Below are positions 19,468 to 28,017 of a DNA stretch of 30,550 nt, piece after piece; within the stretch, counting starts at the first letter, position 1; every line of letters starts with the position of its first letter. The notes beneath the pieces are model-generated. The model did not search any database. It was not told the DNA's origin and saw only the letters and a list, made by a program, of their open reading frames with translations. Origin of the DNA: a virus. Both the position numbers and the translations under genes were made by a program. Location of the stretch: the IMG/VR virus record IMGVR_UViG_3300021090_000082, positions 1-30,550 of that record. The stretch is one strand, 5' to 3'.

Positions 19468-19790
19468 TCTACAACATACTAATTCCAATTATCCTGGCGC
19501 TGTTAGCAAGCTCGGGCTTTTGGGCTCTCCTAGAAAAAAGAACTCAAAGAAATACCCAGCAGGTGGAATTATTGATTGGTTTGGCACACGATCGCATTGT
19601 GTGGTTGGGAATGTCGTACGTACGCCGTGGCTGGATCTATCACGACGAGTATGAGAACCTAATCACATATTTGTACAAGCCATATCAAAAGTTGGGCGGT
19701 AACGGGTCCGTTCTGAGAGTTATGGAGGAAGTCCACAAGCTTCCTATTAAATACCAGTCAATATTCAAAGATAAGGAGAATGAGCAATAA
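19455..19790 (+). CDS. Small membrane protein next to holin
   Basis: A 111-residue protein with one N-terminal membrane helix (residues about 4-24, with ILIPIILALLASSGFWALL) followed by a basic stretch (EKRTQRNTQQ) and a soluble helical part containing HDRIVWLGMSYVRRGWI, EYENLITYLYKPYQKLGGNG and VMEEVHKLP. This plan matches a small phage protein often found beside lysis genes in Firmicutes phages; it may be a lysis accessory or spanin-like factor, but that is inference. It ends at TAATG, sharing one base with the holin start, so the two are coupled. Confidence 0.65.
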   Translation: MDPLIYNILIPIILALLASSGFWALLEKRTQRNTQQVELLIGLAHDRIVWLGMSYVRRGWIYHDEYENLITYLYKPYQKLGGNGSVLRVMEEVHKLPIKYQSIFKDKENEQ

Positions 19791-20566
19791 TGATTAATCT
19801 TTCAGATAAGGTATATAACACCCTTAAATGGGTCACAATGGTGTTTTTACCAGCTATCGCAACGTTGTATATCGCGCTATCTGATATTTGGTACCTCCCG
19901 TACGGACAAGAAGTCGCAGGAACGATTATGGCCATTGTCATGTTTCTTGGTATCTTCATCCAGATCAACACAATACAATATAAGGTCAAGGTTCTTCGAG
20001 AACAAGGTATTTTACCAACATTGACGTTCCATGCCAAATTCACTATGACAAATGCCATTTATGACAACCTCAAGTGGATCGCTACGATCTTTCTGCCAGC
20101 GGCATCAACTCTGTACGTTGCTTTTTCTAGTATTTGGAACCTTCCATACTCCACAGAGGTCTCTGCAACTGTTACGGCTATTGTACTATTCCTTGGTGCC
20201 ATCCTACAGATCAGCTCCTTACAATATCGAGCTAGCATGCGCGTCATAACGGGCGAAAGTGCCTACAGCCCAAATCCTATGCCCAACGCGAGCGTGTTTA
20301 GTATGACAAATAGTACATACGACCTTCTGAAGTTCATTGCCCAGGGCGTTCTGCCCGGTTTGGCAACCTTATACATGATGTTGGCAGCTATTTGGCGTCT
20401 TCCATATTCGGGAGAGGTGTCCGCCACAATTATGGCTATCGTTCTGTTCATGAACGCCCTCCTACAGGTCAGCACGATGAAATACAATGCCGCAGTACGC
20501 CTTGTTTATGGAACGGGCAAACATGCGGCAATCACCCGTCCGGTAAAGAAACATCCGTCGCAGTAA
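19790..20566 (+). CDS. Triple-unit holin-like membrane protein
   Basis: A 258-residue protein made of three tandem holin-like units: residues 3-65, 86-147 and 172-233. Each has the pattern Y(D/N)xLKWI...LPA.ATLY(V/I)A...IW.LPYS.EV.ATI.AIVLFLGA.LQ(I/V)S..(Q/K)Y, with the LPY signature at 36, 118 and 204. Each unit is two membrane helices joined by the conserved IWxLPY turn, as in the single-unit phage r1t/LL-H type holins of about 65-85 residues. The joined protein would have six helices. Holins form lethal pores that release a muramidase, here probably the GH25 protein at 4335. The C-terminus is basic (KHAAITRPVKKHPSQ). The stop lies inside the promoter at 20558. Confidence 0.75.
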   Translation: MINLSDKVYNTLKWVTMVFLPAIATLYIALSDIWYLPYGQEVAGTIMAIVMFLGIFIQINTIQYKVKVLREQGILPTLTFHAKFTMTNAIYDNLKWIATIFLPAASTLYVAFSSIWNLPYSTEVSATVTAIVLFLGAILQISSLQYRASMRVITGESAYSPNPMPNASVFSMTNSTYDLLKFIAQGVLPGLATLYMMLAAIWRLPYSGEVSATIMAIVLFMNALLQVSTMKYNAAVRLVYGTGKHAAITRPVKKHPSQ

Positions 20567-20582
20567 TTACGTATCCTATAAT
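20558..20582 (+). promoter_or_regulatory. Phage-type promoter copy 1 (TCGCAG-N13-TATAAT)
   Basis: TCGCAG (20558-20563) and TATAAT (20577-20582) are separated by 13 bases. The motif lies over the last codons and stop of the triple holin gene and drives the gene at 20609; the leader TATAATGAAACCAA is nearly the same as in copy 4. No TTGACA-type -35 is present at 17 bases. Confidence 0.75.
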
Positions 20583-20608: not shown

Positions 20609-20899
20609 ATGGATACAATATTTTCGACACCGAGAAGCCAAAAGGCTCTTGATAATGAGATCGAACGTTTGACAAGAACGTTGAGCAACACAAGCTCAGT
20701 AGATCCGGATTATGCAAAGATTGCAGACAATTTAAAGGTACTATGTGACTCTAGAGGTCAATTGACCAATAGTGGCATTAGTGCCGAGACAATTGTATCT
20801 GCGACCGTGCATATTCTGGGAATGCTGCTTGTATTGAACTACGAGAAGACAGGCGTGATCACATCAAAGGCATTTAGCTTCCTTGGACGAAAGGTGTAA
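20609..20899 (+). CDS. Small phage protein with hydrophobic C-terminal half
   Basis: A 96-residue protein. The first half is polar and helical (residues 8-45, with QKALDNEIERLTRTL and DYAKIADNLKVL); the second half, after SGISAETIV, is hydrophobic (VSATVHILGMLLVLNYEKTG, about 64-83) and may insert in a membrane, ending GRKV. It resembles small proteins I remember in several phage genomes, with no known function. It is the sole cargo of a compact promoter-gene-terminator unit: promoter copy 1 is 27 bases before its start and a terminator lies 29 bases after its stop. This autonomous layout resembles a moron (an added, independently expressed gene). Confidence 0.65.
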   Translation: MDTIFSTPRSQKALDNEIERLTRTLSNTSSVDPDYAKIADNLKVLCDSRGQLTNSGISAETIVSATVHILGMLLVLNYEKTGVITSKAFSFLGRKV

Positions 20900-20927: not shown

Positions 20928-20963
20928 AGAAGGTCTGTGGAAACATAGACCTTTTCTTTTTAT
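20928..20963 (+). terminator. Rho-independent terminator T1
   Basis: AGGTCTGTG (20931-20939) pairs with CATAGACCT (20944-20952) around a GAAA loop, extended by weaker A-U pairs, then CTTTTCTTTT follows. It ends the unit started by promoter copy 1. Its stem and loop are related to terminator T2 at 24594. Confidence 0.85.
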
Positions 20964-21041: not shown

Positions 21042-21164
21042 ATGAACGCTGCTGAAGGATGTTTTTGGGCGCTTGCGATACTCTTATTTATTCTGGTTAT
21101 GCTGTGGCTATACACAAACAACATTCCAGTATCGCTGGTCTCGCAGGTTTTACACGTCCTATAA
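21042..21164 (+). CDS. 40-residue membrane protein
   Basis: A small protein with a strong AAAGGAG site seven bases before the ATG. Residues about 6-24 form one membrane helix (CFWALAILLFILVMLWLY), followed by TNNIPVSLVSQVLHVL. The stop codon TAA is part of the TATAAT of promoter copy 2, and the Ser-Gln before the end is encoded by that promoter's TCGCAG. The C-terminal SQVLHVL resembles the SQKLHLL end of the unrelated gene at 24113, which overlaps copy 4 the same way. Function unknown; a small lysis or exclusion peptide is possible. Confidence 0.6.
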   Translation: MNAAEGCFWALAILLFILVMLWLYTNNIPVSLVSQVLHVL

Positions 21165-21165
21165 T
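21141..21165 (+). promoter_or_regulatory. Phage-type promoter copy 2 (TCGCAG-N13-TATAAT)
   Basis: TCGCAG (21141-21146) and TATAAT (21160-21165), spacer of 13 with TTACACGTCC. It lies wholly inside the 3' end of the 40-residue membrane gene and points at the 30-residue gene at 21255, leaving an 80-90 base leader in which I see no further gene. Confidence 0.75.
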
Positions 21166-21254
21166 GAAAGGATTAGTAGCAACCGGCAATGGCAAAACTA
21201 TATAGCAATATTTAGAAGCTTACTAGCCCTTTTAAATTTTGATAAGGAGATACA

Positions 21255-21348: not shown

Positions 21349-21373
21349 TCGCAGAATTTGCACGTGCTATAAT
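21349..21373 (+). promoter_or_regulatory. Phage-type promoter copy 3 (TCGCAG-N13-TATAAT)
   Basis: TCGCAG (21349-21354) and TATAAT (21368-21373), spacer of 13; TGC before TATAAT makes an extended -10. It is followed within about seven bases by the short structured RNA at 21379 and not by a protein gene. Confidence 0.78.
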
Positions 21374-21378
21374 GAGAA

Positions 21379-21455
21379 GAGTTATAGGGCTTTACCGCTT
21401 AGTAGGTAGAGATCTGAGCAATCAGAAACTTGTAACTCCTCTCTCTTTTTTTATT
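21379..21455 (+). ncRNA. Small three-way-junction RNA with own promoter and terminator
   Basis: About 75 nt starting six to seven bases after promoter copy 3 and ending in CTCTCTTTTTTTATT. The 5' end pairs with the 3' part: 21374-21384 with 21433-21443 (AGUUA/UAACU core, one A.C mismatch), which also forms the terminator stem. Between them are hairpin 21390-21396/21405-21411 (CUUUACC with GGUAGAG, one U.G pair, 8-nt loop GCUUAGUA) and hairpin 21413-21417/21422-21426 (UCUGA with UCAGA, GCAA tetraloop). No start codon with ribosome site lies inside. It is not a tRNA: the second loop has four bases and there is no T-arm. Function unknown. Confidence 0.7.
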
Positions 21456-21615
21456 AACTAACGGCTTAGTCCAATGAGATAGACCATAATGTGACAAAAA
21501 TGATGTGCCTAGCTAGAGGACCCGAAAAACGGGTAAGCACACAAACAAATCACGAGCCGCTCTAGCGGAAATCGGGCTTATTACTCGGCCATTGGACTAA
21601 GCCGTTAGTTAATAA
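21451..21615. repeat. 26-bp perfect inverted repeat enclosing two hairpin domains
   Basis: Arms 21451-21476 and 21590-21615 are exact reverse complements over 26 bases and enclose 113 bases. Domain 1 (21505-21540): GTGCCTA/TAAGCAC with one mismatch and an inner ACCCG-AAAAA-CGGGT hairpin. Domain 2 (21553-21587): CGAG/CTCG enclosing CCGC-TCTA-GCGG. GCTAGAG (21512-21518) can also pair with CTCTAGC (21560-21566), giving an alternative fold. It starts at the end of terminator T-run 21446-21455 and ends ten bases before the ribosome site of gene 21645. It may be an RNA (either strand) or a DNA element such as a replication or recombination site. Confidence 0.75.
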
Positions 21616-21644
21616 AATCATATTCTCTTGAAAGGAGAAATCTA

Positions 21645-21941
21645 ATGAACAGTGATCCGTATAATGTATACGTAACAGTAGGACACTCAACGGGAAGGTT
21701 TCCTATTATCAAAAAAGTTTGCATGTTGGTTTATGAAGACATTGGTGAGACTCCAGTGCAAGTAGCCAAGAAACTCAGAAAACAAGTTGCAGATAATGCT
21801 TTTGGGTATGGCTATGTGTTAGGAACAGTATTTAAACCCTCAGAACTTTACTATGAGGTGTACATAAATGTGGATGCAAAGATGCCTTATGCTGAGTCCA
21901 CAAATTCACCAAGACTATATAGGGAATCCAACAATGGATGA
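21645..21941 (+). CDS. Unknown 98-residue protein
   Basis: A 98-residue soluble protein, not recognised. Start MNSDPYNVYVTVGHSTG, then IIKKVCMLVYEDIGETPVQ, VAKKLRKQVADNAFGYGYVLG and a strand with YYEVYINVDAKM: an alternating beta/alpha plan. The ribosome site is the extended CTCTTGAAAGGAGAAA (21625-21640), all 16 bases of which are complementary to bases 85-100 of the structured RNA at 29-150. It lies right after the 26-bp inverted repeat. The end overlaps the next gene by eight bases. Confidence 0.6.
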   Translation: MNSDPYNVYVTVGHSTGRFPIIKKVCMLVYEDIGETPVQVAKKLRKQVADNAFGYGYVLGTVFKPSELYYEVYINVDAKMPYAESTNSPRLYRESNNG

Positions 21942-22152
21942 ATTATTGGCCGCCATGCAAGCCGGAGATGAAGATAAAGTAAATGATCTGGCCTGTGAAC
22001 TTTTCATTACCAACGAAGGCTGGTGCAACCGAGCGCAGATCAATGAGTTTGAGCGCTATGCGCCATGCAAAATATTCCCCATAGAACGAGACAGCTTTGG
22101 CTGGCTAATTGGTGGGATCAAATATAACGATAAAACGTTTTCATACGGATAA
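21934..22152 (+). CDS. Small protein, FERY-C-FP family (copy 1)
   Basis: A 72-residue protein with MDELLAAMQAGDEDKVNDLA, LFITNEG, NEFERYAPCKIFP and GGIKYNDKTFSYG. It is clearly related to the product of 22382 (shared ELLxAM, LA.xLFIT, FERYxxCxxFP, GxIxYN, YG end). The ATG at 21934 sits within the last codons of the previous gene after a weak AGGGA site; upstream in-frame starts lie inside that gene. A 68-residue unrelated gene separates the two copies. Function unknown. Confidence 0.6.
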   Translation: MDELLAAMQAGDEDKVNDLACELFITNEGWCNRAQINEFERYAPCKIFPIERDSFGWLIGGIKYNDKTFSYG

Positions 22153-22171
22153 ATCTTGAAAGGAGATTATC

Positions 22172-22378
22172 ATGGAATTCGAACGTTGTGACAAATTTGA
22201 AATCGATGCTTGGGAAATTATCAATCACGAGACTTTACTACGAGAGGTTACGGACGAGCAGATCACAATGATGATCTTCTACAAGGCCACTGTCAGAACT
22301 GGTCTTTATCTTTATCGCCGCCATATTCCTGAGTTTATTAAAGACTGGGCACATCCGCCTGTTGTTGAAAGGAGTTAA
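22172..22378 (+). CDS. Unknown 68-residue protein
   Basis: An acidic, soluble 68-residue protein (MEFERCDKFEIDAWEIINHE, then TDEQITMMIFYKATVRTGLYLYRRH and a WAHPPVVERS end). Not recognised. Preceded by ATCTTGAAAGGAGATT, which matches the complement of the structured RNA linker over 13 bases (22154-22166). It lies between the two related genes at 21934 and 22382. Confidence 0.55.
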   Translation: MEFERCDKFEIDAWEIINHETLLREVTDEQITMMIFYKATVRTGLYLYRRHIPEFIKDWAHPPVVERS

Positions 22379-22381
22379 TCC

Positions 22382-22606
22382 ATGCAAGAACTATTGACTG
22401 CTATGGAAAAACTTGACAAAGACTTGGTTCGAAGACTGGCCGATGACTTATTTATTACTAAAGACGGTGGAGTCAACTTCGTAAATGTTCAGAAATTTGA
22501 ACGATATTCCAGGTGCGATGTATTTCCAGCACAAACAATGCCTGGTGTCGGAAAACTCGTTGGTTGGATCACCTATAACGAGATGAAGTATTATTACGGA
22601 CTGTGA
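22382..22606 (+). CDS. Small protein, FERY-C-FP family (copy 2)
   Basis: A 74-residue paralogue of the protein at 21934: MQELLTAMEKLDKDLVRRLA, DLFITKDGG, QKFERYSRCDVFP, then VGWITYNEMKYYYGL. Hydrophobic and aromatic positions are kept while charged ones vary, as for an old tandem duplication under selection. The ATG follows TTGAAAGGAGTTAATCC three bases after the previous stop. No known domain. Both copies look like small single-domain regulators or inhibitors, but nothing in the sequence shows the target. Confidence 0.6.
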   Translation: MQELLTAMEKLDKDLVRRLADDLFITKDGGVNFVNVQKFERYSRCDVFPAQTMPGVGKLVGWITYNEMKYYYGL

Positions 22607-22621
22607 AAAGGAGAAACCACA

Positions 22622-22891
22622 ATGAACACAATCCAGCAAGCTCTTTTGGGATTGGCTGCGGCATTTAAGTCGCCATATTACAAGGGTACTGATGTTCCTA
22701 AGGGACGGAATAATGAGATTAAAAAGTCTGGAAAGACTCGACGGGGAGCTGTCCACAAGCAGGGACGTGTATTTCGTTCCAGGCATATTACGGCTGTACG
22801 TACAGATGCCGGTATGACGCGCTATGTTACACCCGCACAATATCGTGGATTGCATCTTGGTGCCGGTGCTAAGAAAAAAGAGAGCAAATAA
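22622..22891 (+). CDS. Basic 89-residue protein
   Basis: An 89-residue strongly basic protein (many K and R, ending GAGAKKKESK) with a short hydrophobic start (IQQALLGLAAAF) and the middle KGRNNEIKKSGKTRRGAVHKQGR (in two parts). The charge suggests nucleic-acid binding, but there is no recognisable motif. AAAGGAGAAACCACA precedes the ATG. It ends one base before the next start, so it is probably co-translated with the small protein at 22893. Confidence 0.5.
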   Translation: MNTIQQALLGLAAAFKSPYYKGTDVPKGRNNEIKKSGKTRRGAVHKQGRVFRSRHITAVRTDAGMTRYVTPAQYRGLHLGAGAKKKESK

Positions 22892-22892
22892 G

Positions 22893-23108
22893 ATGGATTC
22901 TATACAACTGGCTGTACTATTAAGTATTTATAAAATCCATCTGGAAGCTGCTGTTGCTAAGATTCGCGAAAATCTCCCGGAAGAATTAAAAGAAATTTCT
23001 ACAAATCTTTTGGGAATACCAGAAGAGGTCTGTCCAATCCTAGATCCCCTCTATCAAGTTATCGGTCTTCTCGATGAAAGTATATTTGATTTGAAAGGCG
23101 GCGCATAA
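22893..23108 (+). CDS. Unknown 71-residue protein
   Basis: A 71-residue acidic protein (MDSIQLAVLLSIYKIHLEAA, then ENLPEELKEISTNLLGIP, PILDPLYQVIGLLDE). Helical and soluble by appearance. The ATG at 22893 is used because it directly follows the previous stop, with AAGAAAAAAGAGAG as a poor ribosome site, which suggests coupling; it ends at TAATG sharing one base with the next gene. Not recognised. Confidence 0.5.
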   Translation: MDSIQLAVLLSIYKIHLEAAVAKIRENLPEELKEISTNLLGIPEEVCPILDPLYQVIGLLDESIFDLKGGA

Positions 23109-23890
23109 TGGACACCAGCATTGTTGAAAAATCTGTAAAGCAATTCTCCAGAGCAATAAATCGCAACTCGCCTACTATTCTCACTGCTCTTGGTGTTGCA
23201 GGGCTTGTAAGCACAGTTATATTGGCCATTAAAGCCACACCAAAGGCTCTTGAAATTATTGAGATGGAAGAGAAGTATCGTCTCTGTGAAATGCAAGATC
23301 CAGATTATGCAAAGCCGATCGACATTGTAGATACGATCAAGTTGACCTGGAAATGTTATATTCCAACTGCCGCGATGGGACTATCGACCATAGTTTGTAT
23401 GGTTGGGGCCAACTCAATCCATTTGCGTCGCAATGCTGCCCTGGCCAGTCTGTTCACCATAACCGAAACTGCTCTGAAAGAATATCAGGCAAAAGTTGTT
23501 GAACAGATCGGTGAGAAGAAAGAAGAAAAGATTCGTGGTGAGATCGCTCAGGACAAACTTGATGCCAACCCAGTCAACGAGAAGACTATCGTTATGACGG
23601 GAAAAGGCAACTATCTTTGTTTTGACGAGTTTTCTGGGAGATATTTTCGCAGCGACATATCTGCTCTTCAGAAGGCCGAGAATGAATTCAATCGTCGACT
23701 TCTAAGAGAGATGTGGCTGTCGATCAACGAGTTATATTATGAACTTGGTCTCGAGAATATCGAGCTTGGCGACGAGATGGGTTGGATTGCTGAGAGAGAA
23801 CTATTAGAGTTCAAGTTCTCAACTAAGATGTCCAAAGACCAAGAACCCTGTGTGGTTGTAGGTTACAGAGTTACGCCACATCATATTTAA
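23108..23890 (+). CDS. Phage membrane protein of the DUF6353 type
   Basis: A 260-residue protein I associate with the phage family DUF6353 (from memory). After an amphipathic start come a first membrane helix (residues about 21-45, SPTILTALGVAGLVSTVILAIKATPKAL in two parts), a charged stretch, then a second (LTWKCYIPTAAMGLSTIVC, about 78-96). The cytoplasmic rest has LRRNAALASLFTITETALKEYQ, a long charged helix, MTGKGNYLCFDEFSGRYF and a C-terminal part with GDEMGW. Function unknown; a membrane-anchored structural or regulatory role is possible. A related gene starts at 30187. The start overlaps the previous stop by one base. Confidence 0.65.
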   Translation: MDTSIVEKSVKQFSRAINRNSPTILTALGVAGLVSTVILAIKATPKALEIIEMEEKYRLCEMQDPDYAKPIDIVDTIKLTWKCYIPTAAMGLSTIVCMVGANSIHLRRNAALASLFTITETALKEYQAKVVEQIGEKKEEKIRGEIAQDKLDANPVNEKTIVMTGKGNYLCFDEFSGRYFRSDISALQKAENEFNRRLLREMWLSINELYYELGLENIELGDEMGWIAERELLEFKFSTKMSKDQEPCVVVGYRVTPHHI

Positions 23891-23907
23891 ACGAAAGGAG
23901 TCGTCTG

Positions 23908-24138
23908 ATGATAGAGTTATTTGTTAATTTGTTTAAAGGTGAATGGTTTTCGTTTGGGGACAATAGGGATAGAAAGCTAATAAAGTCAGACGATACGCAC
24001 TATGCTAGCCCAACAGGAGTAAGACAAATTCACCCATACGTCGCAGTGATCCCAGAGGGTCACACAAGAAAACTTAAAAGTATATTTGACTTGTCTGATA
24101 GTGGAGACTCAGATGGACACAACAATAACAACAGTTAA
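23908..24138 (+). CDS. Unknown 76-residue protein
   Basis: A 76-residue protein (MIELFVNLFKGEWFSFGDN, then RKLIKSDDTHYASPTGVRQIH) with a polar tail of Asp, Ser and five Asn (GHNNNNS end). Not recognised. GAAAGGAG is ten bases before the ATG. The last 26 bases overlap the start of the next gene in a different frame, with the Asn run encoded by the AACAATAACAACA stretch. Confidence 0.5.
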   Translation: MIELFVNLFKGEWFSFGDNRDRKLIKSDDTHYASPTGVRQIHPYVAVIPEGHTRKLKSIFDLSDSGDSDGHNNNNS

Positions 24139-24364
24139 AATTCCCGCGATCACTAAGATGAACGAGAAAGAATATTCTCAAATGAAGTACGATGAAGCTC
24201 TTAGAGTGATGCTCAAAAGTCCCACCAGAGAGAACATTCAAACTTTCGAGGAAGCAAACCGTCGTTTGTATGAGACGCAGGATCTATACCGTATTGGACT
24301 TCGATTAAAAATCGAATTTCGAAAACGATTAATTCATGCCTCGCAGAAATTACATCTCCTATAA
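24113..24364 (+). CDS. Unknown 83-residue protein ending inside a promoter
   Basis: An 83-residue helical protein (MDTTITTVKIPAITKMNEK, then YDEALRVMLKSPTRENIQTF and a basic helix RIGLRLKIEFRKRLIHAS). The ATG at 24113 has GGAG six bases upstream; earlier in-frame starts lie within the preceding gene. The last eight codons are the promoter copy 4 sequence: Ser-Gln from TCGCAG and the stop TAA from TATAAT, giving the tail SQKLHLL. That tail mirrors SQVLHVL of gene 21042. Function unknown. Confidence 0.5.
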   Translation: MDTTITTVKIPAITKMNEKEYSQMKYDEALRVMLKSPTRENIQTFEEANRRLYETQDLYRIGLRLKIEFRKRLIHASQKLHLL

Positions 24365-24365
24365 T
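24341..24365 (+). promoter_or_regulatory. Phage-type promoter copy 4 (TCGCAG-N13-TATAAT)
   Basis: TCGCAG (24341-24346) and TATAAT (24360-24365), spacer of 13 with TTACATCTCC. The following GAAACCAA is shared with copy 1. It overlaps the 3' end of gene 24113 and drives gene 24400. Confidence 0.75.
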
Positions 24366-24399: not shown

Positions 24400-24585
24400 A
24401 TGTTCGATAAAATCAAATTCACACTGAAAGATCCCAAGTTTCAACGCAATGCAGCTCAGGCTGCTGGTGGCGTAGTTAGCATCATAGCTACCGCAGTCAT
24501 CAGTAACCTGGTCAGCGTCGTGGTGAGCAAGGGAATCGATTTAGCGATGGACAAGATTCAAGGCGTGACGACCCCGACTGAATAG
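24400..24585 (+). CDS. Small protein with one membrane segment
   Basis: A 61-residue protein: basic start (MFDKIKFTLKDPKFQRNAAQ), a hydrophobic Ala/Val/Ile segment (VVSIIATAVISNLVSVVVS, about residues 27-45) and a short amphipathic end with MDKIQGVTTPTE. It forms a compact unit with promoter copy 4 (35 bases upstream) and terminator T2 (nine bases downstream), the same layout as the 20609 gene. Its ATAAGGAGATAATATC ribosome region resembles that of 20609. Function unknown. Confidence 0.6.
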   Translation: MFDKIKFTLKDPKFQRNAAQAAGGVVSIIATAVISNLVSVVVSKGIDLAMDKIQGVTTPTE

Positions 24586-24593
24586 GTCAAGAA

Positions 24594-24626
24594 GATGGGT
24601 TCATGGAAACATGGACCTTTCTTTTT
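24594..24626 (+). terminator. Rho-independent terminator T2
   Basis: GGTTCATG (24598-24605) pairs with CATGGACC (24610-24617) around GAAA, with one U.G pair, then TTTCTTTTT follows. Loop and right arm resemble T1 at 20928, so the two promoter-gene-terminator units probably share ancestry. Confidence 0.85.
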
Positions 24627-26372: not shown

Positions 26373-26552
26373 TCTGTAGGTGTTAGAAAGCATCACTGGC
26401 TGAACCAAGTGCGTCCATGCCATCCGCTCAATCCCATTTTCTGATGGCTCAGCTTGTTGGGGTGTGGGCTTTTAGGCGTAATGGATAAGATAGGTCTCCT
26501 CTTGGCTGTGATAAGTGACCTAAGCCATACTCAAAACAAAAAGGAAAAAAGA
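26373..26552 (+). other. 180-base gap before secreted protein
   Basis: I see no convincing gene here. A short hairpin lies at 26394-26411 (CACTGG/CCAAGTG with a bulge), and TGGCT/AGCCA can pair around 26513-26527. No TCGCAG-type promoter and no U-run terminator. It is probably the leader of the secreted protein gene, whose AAGGAAAAAAGA site lies at its end. Confidence 0.4.
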
Positions 26553-27113: not shown

Positions 27114-27135
27114 GGGACATCTTGCGCGGCTAGAC

Positions 27136-27205
27136 GGATTATAACTAGCTTAACTGGCCTGGTCACATGTTGACCTCACGTCTTAGACGTAGAGCCAGAT
27201 TATCC
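27136..27205 (+). ncRNA. Three-way-junction RNA fold
   Basis: GGATTAT (27136-27142) pairs with ATTATCC (27199-27205) with one U.U mismatch; CTGGC (27154-27158) pairs with GCCAG (27194-27198); inside are GGTC-ACATGTT-GACC (27161-27175) and ACGTC-TTA-GACGT (27178-27190). It follows the secreted protein gene by 22 bases and has no own promoter, so it may be a 3'-UTR or leader fold. It contains no open frame. Confidence 0.5.
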
Positions 27206-27216
27206 CTTTGAAAATT

Positions 27217-27360
27217 TATAATAGTAGGATCTTATTTCTCCTTTACTAACCCAGAGGCTGGACTTATCTTCCAGTTGGGCCCCCTACATGTATAAATATC
27301 ATACCGTGTCGGTGTGAAACCGGCCGCAAGAATATGTTGTACTTTTGAAAGGAGGGTTTT
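27217..27360 (+). promoter_or_regulatory. Possible structured leader of gene 27361 with anti-SD
   Basis: TATAAT at 27217-27222 lacks the TCGCAG box and any good -35. TTTCTCCTTT (27235-27244) is the same ten bases as 85-94 in the RNA at 29-150, and its CTCCTTT is complementary to the AAAGGAG ribosome site of the next gene (27350-27356). Between them are hairpins CCCA..CTGGA-CTTATCT-TCCAG..TGGG (27250-27279) and GTCGGT/ACCGGC near 27309-27325. This could be an anti-SD switch on gene 27361. Confidence 0.4.
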
Positions 27361-27900: not shown

Positions 27901-27925
27901 TCGCAGTAATCACACAGGGTATAAT
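27901..27925 (+). promoter_or_regulatory. Phage-type promoter copy 5 (TCGCAG-N13-TATAAT)
   Basis: TCGCAG (27901-27906) and TATAAT (27920-27925), spacer of 13 with CACACAGGG. The preceding GTAAG is shared with copy 3. It drives a short RNA ending in terminator T3, with no good protein gene between. Confidence 0.72.
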
Positions 27926-27929
27926 AGAA

Positions 27930-28017
27930 GAGGTAGCGTTAGTTAACAAGGAGAAATCCCTATATAGACCACGCCTCTTCTATCTTTTGAAGGATAAAAT
28001 ACTAGTCCTTCTTTTTT
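27930..28017 (+). ncRNA. Short RNA with own promoter and terminator
   Basis: A stretch of about 88 nt from five to eight bases after promoter copy 5 to T3. AGAAGAGG (27926-27933) pairs with CCTCTTCT (27974-27981), so the 5' end closes onto an inner loop that holds GGA-GAAA-UCC, a GNRA-type mini hairpin. An AAGGAG at 27950-27955 has no start codon at proper distance (ATCCCTATATAG follows), so it is not a normal gene leader. Function unknown; alternatively it is the leader of gene 28049 with an attenuator. Confidence 0.5.
27989..28017 (+). terminator. Rho-independent terminator T3
   Basis: GAAGGA (27989-27994) pairs with TCCTTC (28006-28011) around an 11-base loop, then TTTTTT follows. The short stem makes it weaker than T1 and T2. 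It lies 32 bases before gene 28049 and may act as an attenuator. Confidence 0.65.

Follow-up and report, generated by a model that had tools for sequence, protein, structure and literature searches.

The RNA1 locus and its phage

What is encoded at positions 21349-21455 of a 30,550-base virus record (the whole stretch analyzed, hereafter the window), where a promoter-like repeat runs directly into a sequence able to fold upon itself? The original prediction, made from the letters alone, was of a plus-strand small RNA gene that has a promoter of its own and whose product folds into a three-way junction followed by a terminator. The coordinates given for it are right, the sequence there is as described, and the gene itself is borne out by three relatives and the compensatory changes among them. 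The RNA is called RNA1 here.

The window carries the genes of a tailed phage (terminase, portal, capsid-protease fusion, and tape measure), with a holin-type gene at 19790-20566 followed by an accessory region of small genes. Its capsid-protease protein is about 50% identical to counterparts in Arthrobacter, Gordonia, and Streptomyces phages, and sequence comparison points to a tailed phage related to the actinobacteriophages as the source of RNA1. The window is probably a fragment. At the DNA level, no match to the RNA1 region was found in sequenced phages, and RNA1 alone returned chance matches only; the three relatives, L005, L006, and L007, were located via a neighboring protein encoded at 23108-23890 (phrog_2152).

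Structure and conservation of RNA1

The promoter copy of RNA1, TCGCA-N4-TTGCA-N4-CTATAAT (TCGCAGAATTTGCACGTGCTATAAT; 21349-21373, plus strand), was found as a member of a direct repeat family of the window (D1/D2) and by pattern scan, and its motif is shared with the L005, L006, and L007 orthologues. It lies directly 5' of the RNA, with no gap between them (21373/21374). RNA1 itself (21374-21450, plus strand, about 72-78 nt) is a three-way junction defined by its folding score, its orthologues, and a shuffle test of its architecture. In the minimum free energy structure, the 5' arm of the outer stem P1 (21374-21388) begins immediately after TATAAT and pairs with a 3' arm at 21429-21443. Within it lie H1 (21390-21411), a 7-bp hairpin with the loop GCUUAGUA that is supported by the fold and by hand comparison of pairs, and H2 (21413-21426), a 5-bp hairpin with a GCAA tetraloop that is supported by the fold and by the relatives. 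A run of seven U residues (21446-21452) follows the closing stem in the manner of an intrinsic terminator, and a U-rich tail is present in all three relatives.

The original description of about 75 nt with paired ends, two inner hairpins, and a U-run agrees with these results. Folded alone, 21374-21445 (72 nt) forms the three-way junction at -29.7 kcal/mol, with an outer stem of 4+10 bp; the fold has a z score of -4.83, and none of 200 shuffles folds equally well. When the promoter and tail are added, the z score is -2.85. Of 3000 dinucleotide shuffles of RNA1, 14 pair their extreme ends in an outer stem of 9 bp or more and contain exactly two hairpins. The closing stem is also the outer helix of the junction, and a simple terminator scan makes no call here even though the U7 run adjoins. 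From this arrangement, the terminator of RNA1 would be its own closing stem, and this terminator is probably leaky because no promoter copy precedes the downstream genes until 24341.

The orthologues (L005:4701, L006:4381, and L007:4051) are 65-70 nt long and follow the same plan. In all three, the promoter, the three-way junction, a GNRA-type hairpin, and the U-rich tail are present at the corresponding place in the genome, and many stem bases differ among them while the architecture persists; the pairing predicted from a single sequence has thus not been lost in its homologues. The four z scores (-4.83, -4.65, -3.00, and -6.12) are all well below chance, and in each case at most 14 of 3000 shuffles show the architecture. 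Between the window and L005, four of the seven H1 pairs have changed on both sides and, by hand comparison, all seven still pair, with an identical 8-nt loop. The loop is partly retained in L006 (AGUA) and is not retained in L007. In H2, the same comparison gives one double change and one lost pair; L006 and L007 have GAAA as the cap where the window and L005 have GCAA. The comparison comprises these four orthologues, all of them related, and a covariance model search of the kind that had been proposed for RNA1, run over 96 sources, recovers the same four and nothing else convincing. At the level of sequence comparison, RNA1 is supported as a small RNA gene, having its own promoter, a covarying structure, and no conserved reading frame.

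Comparison with known RNAs

Does RNA1 belong to a known family? ARAGORN finds no tRNA genes in the window. A scan of the window against Rfam 15 gives nothing that reaches the gathering score, and over the RNA1 stretch there is nothing meaningful at an E value of 5; a sub-threshold match to CRISPR-DR51 lies outside RNA1, at 21192-21237. A tRNA (RF00005) identity was considered and is out: RNA1 has no T-arm, CCA, or anticodon loop and no match by either program, in keeping with the earlier statement that it lacks anticodon and T-arms despite its tRNA-like size.

Resemblances to other phage RNAs are of a general kind. The put RNA of phage HK022 forms two stem-loops and acts in cis on the host RNA polymerase. 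Like RNA1, it is structured, about 70 nt long, and positioned where an early transcript begins; RNA1, however, has an outer stem that encloses it and a U-run at its end. Phage-encoded small RNAs have been described as short, non-coding, and located between phage genes, with functions that are mostly unknown (PMC12197685), and highly transcribed intergenic RNAs have been reported for the temperate cluster CA Rhodococcus phage WC1 (PMC10986025). RNA1 is likewise short, non-coding, and intergenic, but it has a defined comparative fold, and its likeness to the WC1 RNAs is one of description rather than of sequence, promoter, or structure. Finally, the RNA anti-CRISPRs (Racrs), which are solitary repeat units, provide a case of a phage RNA that outnumbers a host RNA (PMC10651486). 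RNA1 is similarly a compact, promoter-driven phage RNA, but it is a three-way junction rather than a single repeat hairpin, and the Rfam scan revealed no resemblance of RNA1 to a CRISPR repeat.

The promoter family and its probable start point

The pattern TTNCACGTNCTATAATG has four matches in the window at up to three mismatches, compared with 0.7 expected, and no shuffle reached four. Besides the copy of RNA1, plus-strand copies lie at 21141-21165, neighboring RNA1 (pattern scans); at 27901-27925 (repeat search and pattern scan); and, by pattern scan, at 20558-20582 and 24341-24365, where they drive small ORFs (20609-20899 and 24400-24585, respectively), the second of which ends in an intrinsic terminator. 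Near-identical terminator-like repeats of the TGGAAACATGGACC type (20938-20960 and 24604-24626) end these two promoter-proximal ORFs, and long operons without promoter copies follow both. This suggests that leaky termination after the small ORFs serves as a dosage device.

A scan of IMG/VR revealed TCGCA-N4-TTnCA-N4-YTATAATGA in at least 120 stretches, and the family is also present in isolated phages of Gordonia and Arthrobacter. In 553,539 bases of unrelated phage contigs there were no matches, even with a looser pattern. The loci examined contain 300 promoter matches; in 244 a ribosome-binding site and start codon follow, and in the other 56 they are lacking. At many of these 56, the sequence that follows opens with GAGAAG or similar letters, which pair with the bases immediately ahead of a U-run. 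Exchanging the first 14 bases among promoters in 200 permutation trials gave a mean of 6.2 and a maximum of 13 promoters that reached the set stem score; the actual number is 38 of 309 non-redundant promoters. Furthermore, in 21 cases the base immediately following TATAAT is the first to pair in the outer stem (1.5 expected, maximum 6). Because pairing of the outer stem begins there, transcription most likely starts at or before the first base after TATAAT, as judged from the sequences.

A sigma-70 promoter has a -35 box 16-18 nt before TATAAT and a start 6-8 nt after it. Neither feature is seen here: a two-hexamer sigma-70 scan called none of the five window copies, there is no -35 box, and stem pairing runs from the first base after TATAAT. 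On these grounds, a sigma-70 promoter is unlikely. A 50-bp intergenic motif containing TATAAT has been reported in five copies in the cluster DJ Gordonia phage Vardy, where it was read as a sigma-70 -10 box before ORFs and a possible gene regulator (PMC9671010). From its description, and given that Tanis, also of the Deejayvirinae, carries the family, this motif probably belongs to the same promoter family as that of RNA1; the Vardy report does not mention RNA genes behind the motif or a start right after TATAAT (PMC9671010).

A wider set of candidate promoter-driven RNAs

With wider promoter letters, 40 RNA candidates with a median length of 85 nt are found behind the promoter family, of which perhaps about six would be due to chance by the permutation test. 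Nine run straight into another promoter and are therefore monocistronic; 25 run into an ORF within 100 nt. What varies least across the set is the outer stem together with the U-run; the inner sequences differ widely.

Two of the genes behind the promoter are of tRNA type (L019 and L064). The one at L064:187-266, which ARAGORN cannot assign, has an 8-nt anticodon-arm loop that can close to a GUAA tetraloop. Others are tandem-hairpin RNAs (L021, L023, L096, and L109). Two or three copies of one hairpin motif are seen at L021:10985, in L023 (minus strand, about 2800), at L096:9083 and 9372, and in L036 and L109; the L023 RNA has AAUCUCGACUACGAGGACA three times. By sequence, such RNAs are as would be expected of a protein-binding sponge. 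Gordonia phage Tanis (about 29824 and 37830) and Arthrobacter phage Giantsbane (about 30186 and 30336) each have two RNA candidates, in places that carry no annotation. A widespread, unannotated family combining GACAC-GAAU-GUGU with a T-loop-like hairpin occurs in Gordonia and Arthrobacter phages and in metagenomes (Tanis 29824; Giantsbane 30186 and 30336; L010:1467, L016, L088, L123, and L126).

The window itself contains two further candidates of this kind, both on the plus strand. RNA-C (27926-27980, z -2.48) was detected by its fold and has a counterpart at L007:9887-9955 (z -5.56); a separate GAAGGA...UCCUUCUUUUUU hairpin resembling an intrinsic terminator lies 3' of it, at about 27988-28017. 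The weaker RNA-D (21166-21232, z -1.33), behind the promoter at 21141, was detected by its fold and by a position shared with the relatives. Its slot holds a different structured RNA in each of them (L005:4463, L006:4095, and L007:3030), a sign of rapid exchange. Two long gene-poor stretches elsewhere in the window, 27114-27350 (z -1.8) and 26375-26545 (z +0.4), do not fold significantly better than shuffled sequence.

RNA2, a second structured RNA downstream

Directly downstream of RNA1, and overlapping its U-run at the 5' end, lies RNA2 (21449-21617, plus strand), a conserved structured RNA with a pseudoknot that was identified through an inverted repeat, its fold (z -9.35), and covariation. 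Its terminal stem is a perfect 28-bp inverted repeat (21449-21476 and 21590-21617) enclosing 113 nt, and the pseudoknot joins GCUAGAG (21512-21518) to CUCUAGC (21560-21566). Among three sequences (the window, L005, and L007), 13 pairs have changed on both sides, pseudoknot pairs included, whereas UGACAAAA and AGCGGAAA in the core are invariant. In L005 and L007 the stem contains G.U pairs, which are compatible with the plus strand only. RNA2 has no Rfam family, a pattern scan returned L005 and L007 only, and it is absent after RNA1 in L006. Arguably, RNA2 is the more unusual of the two RNAs. Lacking its own copy of the promoter, it must be reached by read-through or from another promoter.

A candidate polymerase

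Which polymerase might use such a promoter? Tanis gp92 is annotated as an RNA-dependent RNA polymerase and matches the PHROGs family of that name, phrog_4291, with an E value of 0. Homologues are present on the L005 and L006 contigs and, incompletely, at the end of the L007 contig. Of 13 promoter-bearing contigs above 40 kb that were examined, 12 encode one; the window, which is probably a fragment, has no polymerase candidate gene. A homologue also occurs in three further relatives that have no promoter matches in the stretch seen. The link between promoter and polymerase is suggestive and non-exclusive.

The candidates share an invariant SGADFDGD motif, which we take to resemble the catalytic motif of two-barrel RNA polymerases, and their putative identity as RNA polymerases rests on PHROGs together with the DFDGD motif. 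Structure prediction for the gp92-type candidate was poor (pLDDT 66), with no significant match in a fold search, and by profile comparison the phrog_4291 candidate could not be aligned with YonO. A search for a T7-type RNA polymerase in the carriers gave no match, but the control genomes were equally silent. YonO of SPbeta is a single-chain RNA polymerase outside the T7 type; its authors describe its promoter as undetermined and place the start of its transcript ahead of a non-coding RNA that lacks annotation (PMC5467207). The phrog_4291 candidate (motif GADFDGD) is connected to YonO by annotation and motif only. In a separate observation, the gene cluster of the polymerase candidate is preceded in three relatives, at L200:8286, L205:8493, and L202:822, by a structured RNA whose promoter is a variant form (TCGCG...ACATA.....TATAATAGA).

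Models for the function of RNA1

Taken together, these results lead us to favor, with moderate confidence, a model in which RNA1 is a stand-alone, abundant, trans-acting structured RNA of fast-changing accessory cassettes, possibly a decoy or scaffold. RNA1 would be an abundant transcript in infected cells, probably synthesized by a polymerase of the phage itself, and the pairing of its ends would give it stability. Release at the closing stem would yield a discrete RNA of about 75 nt, and leakage would feed the operon 21645-24340. More tentatively, RNA1 would act in trans by offering the H1 loop and the GNRA hairpin to an RNA-binding partner from host or phage; by analogy, our best guess is that it would be a decoy or scaffold interfering with a host function. 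The accessory region that separates the lysis genes from the replication genes would hold several quickly changing RNA cassettes, RNA1 among them. Trans action is supported by the tRNA-type genes of L019 and L064, since these have trans-acting products and share the promoter, and RNA slots that differ between close relatives are as expected for host-interaction genes. Points against the favored model are that the four orthologues are few and all related, with an H1 loop that is lost in L007 and retained in part in L006, and that an operon without its own promoter copy follows RNA1, in L006 and, via RNA2, in the others.

The main rival makes use of this last point. RNA1 might be the 5' end of the operon transcript 21645-24340, a leader or attenuator that controls read-through in cis, either as a put-like antitermination element or as a protein-sensing attenuator, with RNA2 in the same leader, perhaps as an RNase III processing site. 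In its favor, there is no promoter copy between 21373 and 24341, RNA1 sits just before a ribosome-binding site and ORF in L006, and an ORF lies within 100 nt 3' of 25 of the 40 candidates in the wider set. We nevertheless consider it rather unlikely, given that a new promoter directly follows nine of these candidates and that tRNA-type genes occupy the same slot. In addition, small ORFs with a terminator also precede long operons, and so a leaky terminator after the first product would be enough.

It is more doubtful still that RNA1 is a punctuation device only, that is, a clamp protecting the 5' end plus a leaky terminator, with inner hairpins that have no function. The constancy of the outer stem and U-run across the set, next to inner sequences that vary so widely, is what such a device would give. 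It would not explain why the H1 loop is identical between the window and L005 above a covarying stem or why all four orthologues have a GNRA cap, and a plain hairpin would suffice as a terminator, as it does after the ORFs.

Another model views RNA1 as a degenerate tRNA or tRNA decoy that has lost its T-arm and turned its anticodon loop into a tetraloop, and which baits a tRNA-cutting defense enzyme or binds a tRNA enzyme. The promoter is indeed shared with tRNA-type genes, one of which, in L064, has an enlarged, GNRA-like anticodon loop, and to the eye GCUUAGUAGGUAGAG in the window resembles a D-arm. These D-arm-like letters are not kept in L005, however, where the H1 stem has been remodeled, and the lack of tRNA features and of any match in Rfam or ARAGORN noted above also makes this model improbable.

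The original claim that no coding frame fits needs amending, in that a 29-codon frame does run from the ATG of TATAATG at 21372 to a TAA at 21459-21461, but a short coding gene is hardly credible: the frame is open in the window only and stops after 4-7 codons in L005, L006, and L007, it is not preceded by a ribosome-binding site, its ATG comes before any position where RNA1 could plausibly begin, and the stems covary.

Implications for actinobacteriophage biology

Beyond the stand-alone model for RNA1, it is conceivable, although we put this forward only tentatively, that actinobacteriophages have a large, hitherto unrecognized RNA-cassette system in which a phage polymerase of neither T7 type nor sigma-70 dependence makes abundant, end-clamped RNAs that serve as exchangeable decoys against host functions or defenses. 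RNA1 would be one of these, and the folds, many and unrelated, would include three-way junctions, tandem-hairpin repeats, and tRNA-like forms. Gene finders seek proteins and known RNA families, which is why few phage RNA genes are annotated; the promoter signature alone points to dozens of such genes. This signature is also a candidate for the promoter used by a class of phage RNA polymerases that has received little study. Since the carriers include phages of laboratory hosts, such as Tanis and Giantsbane, the function of phage RNAs in actinobacteria becomes testable.
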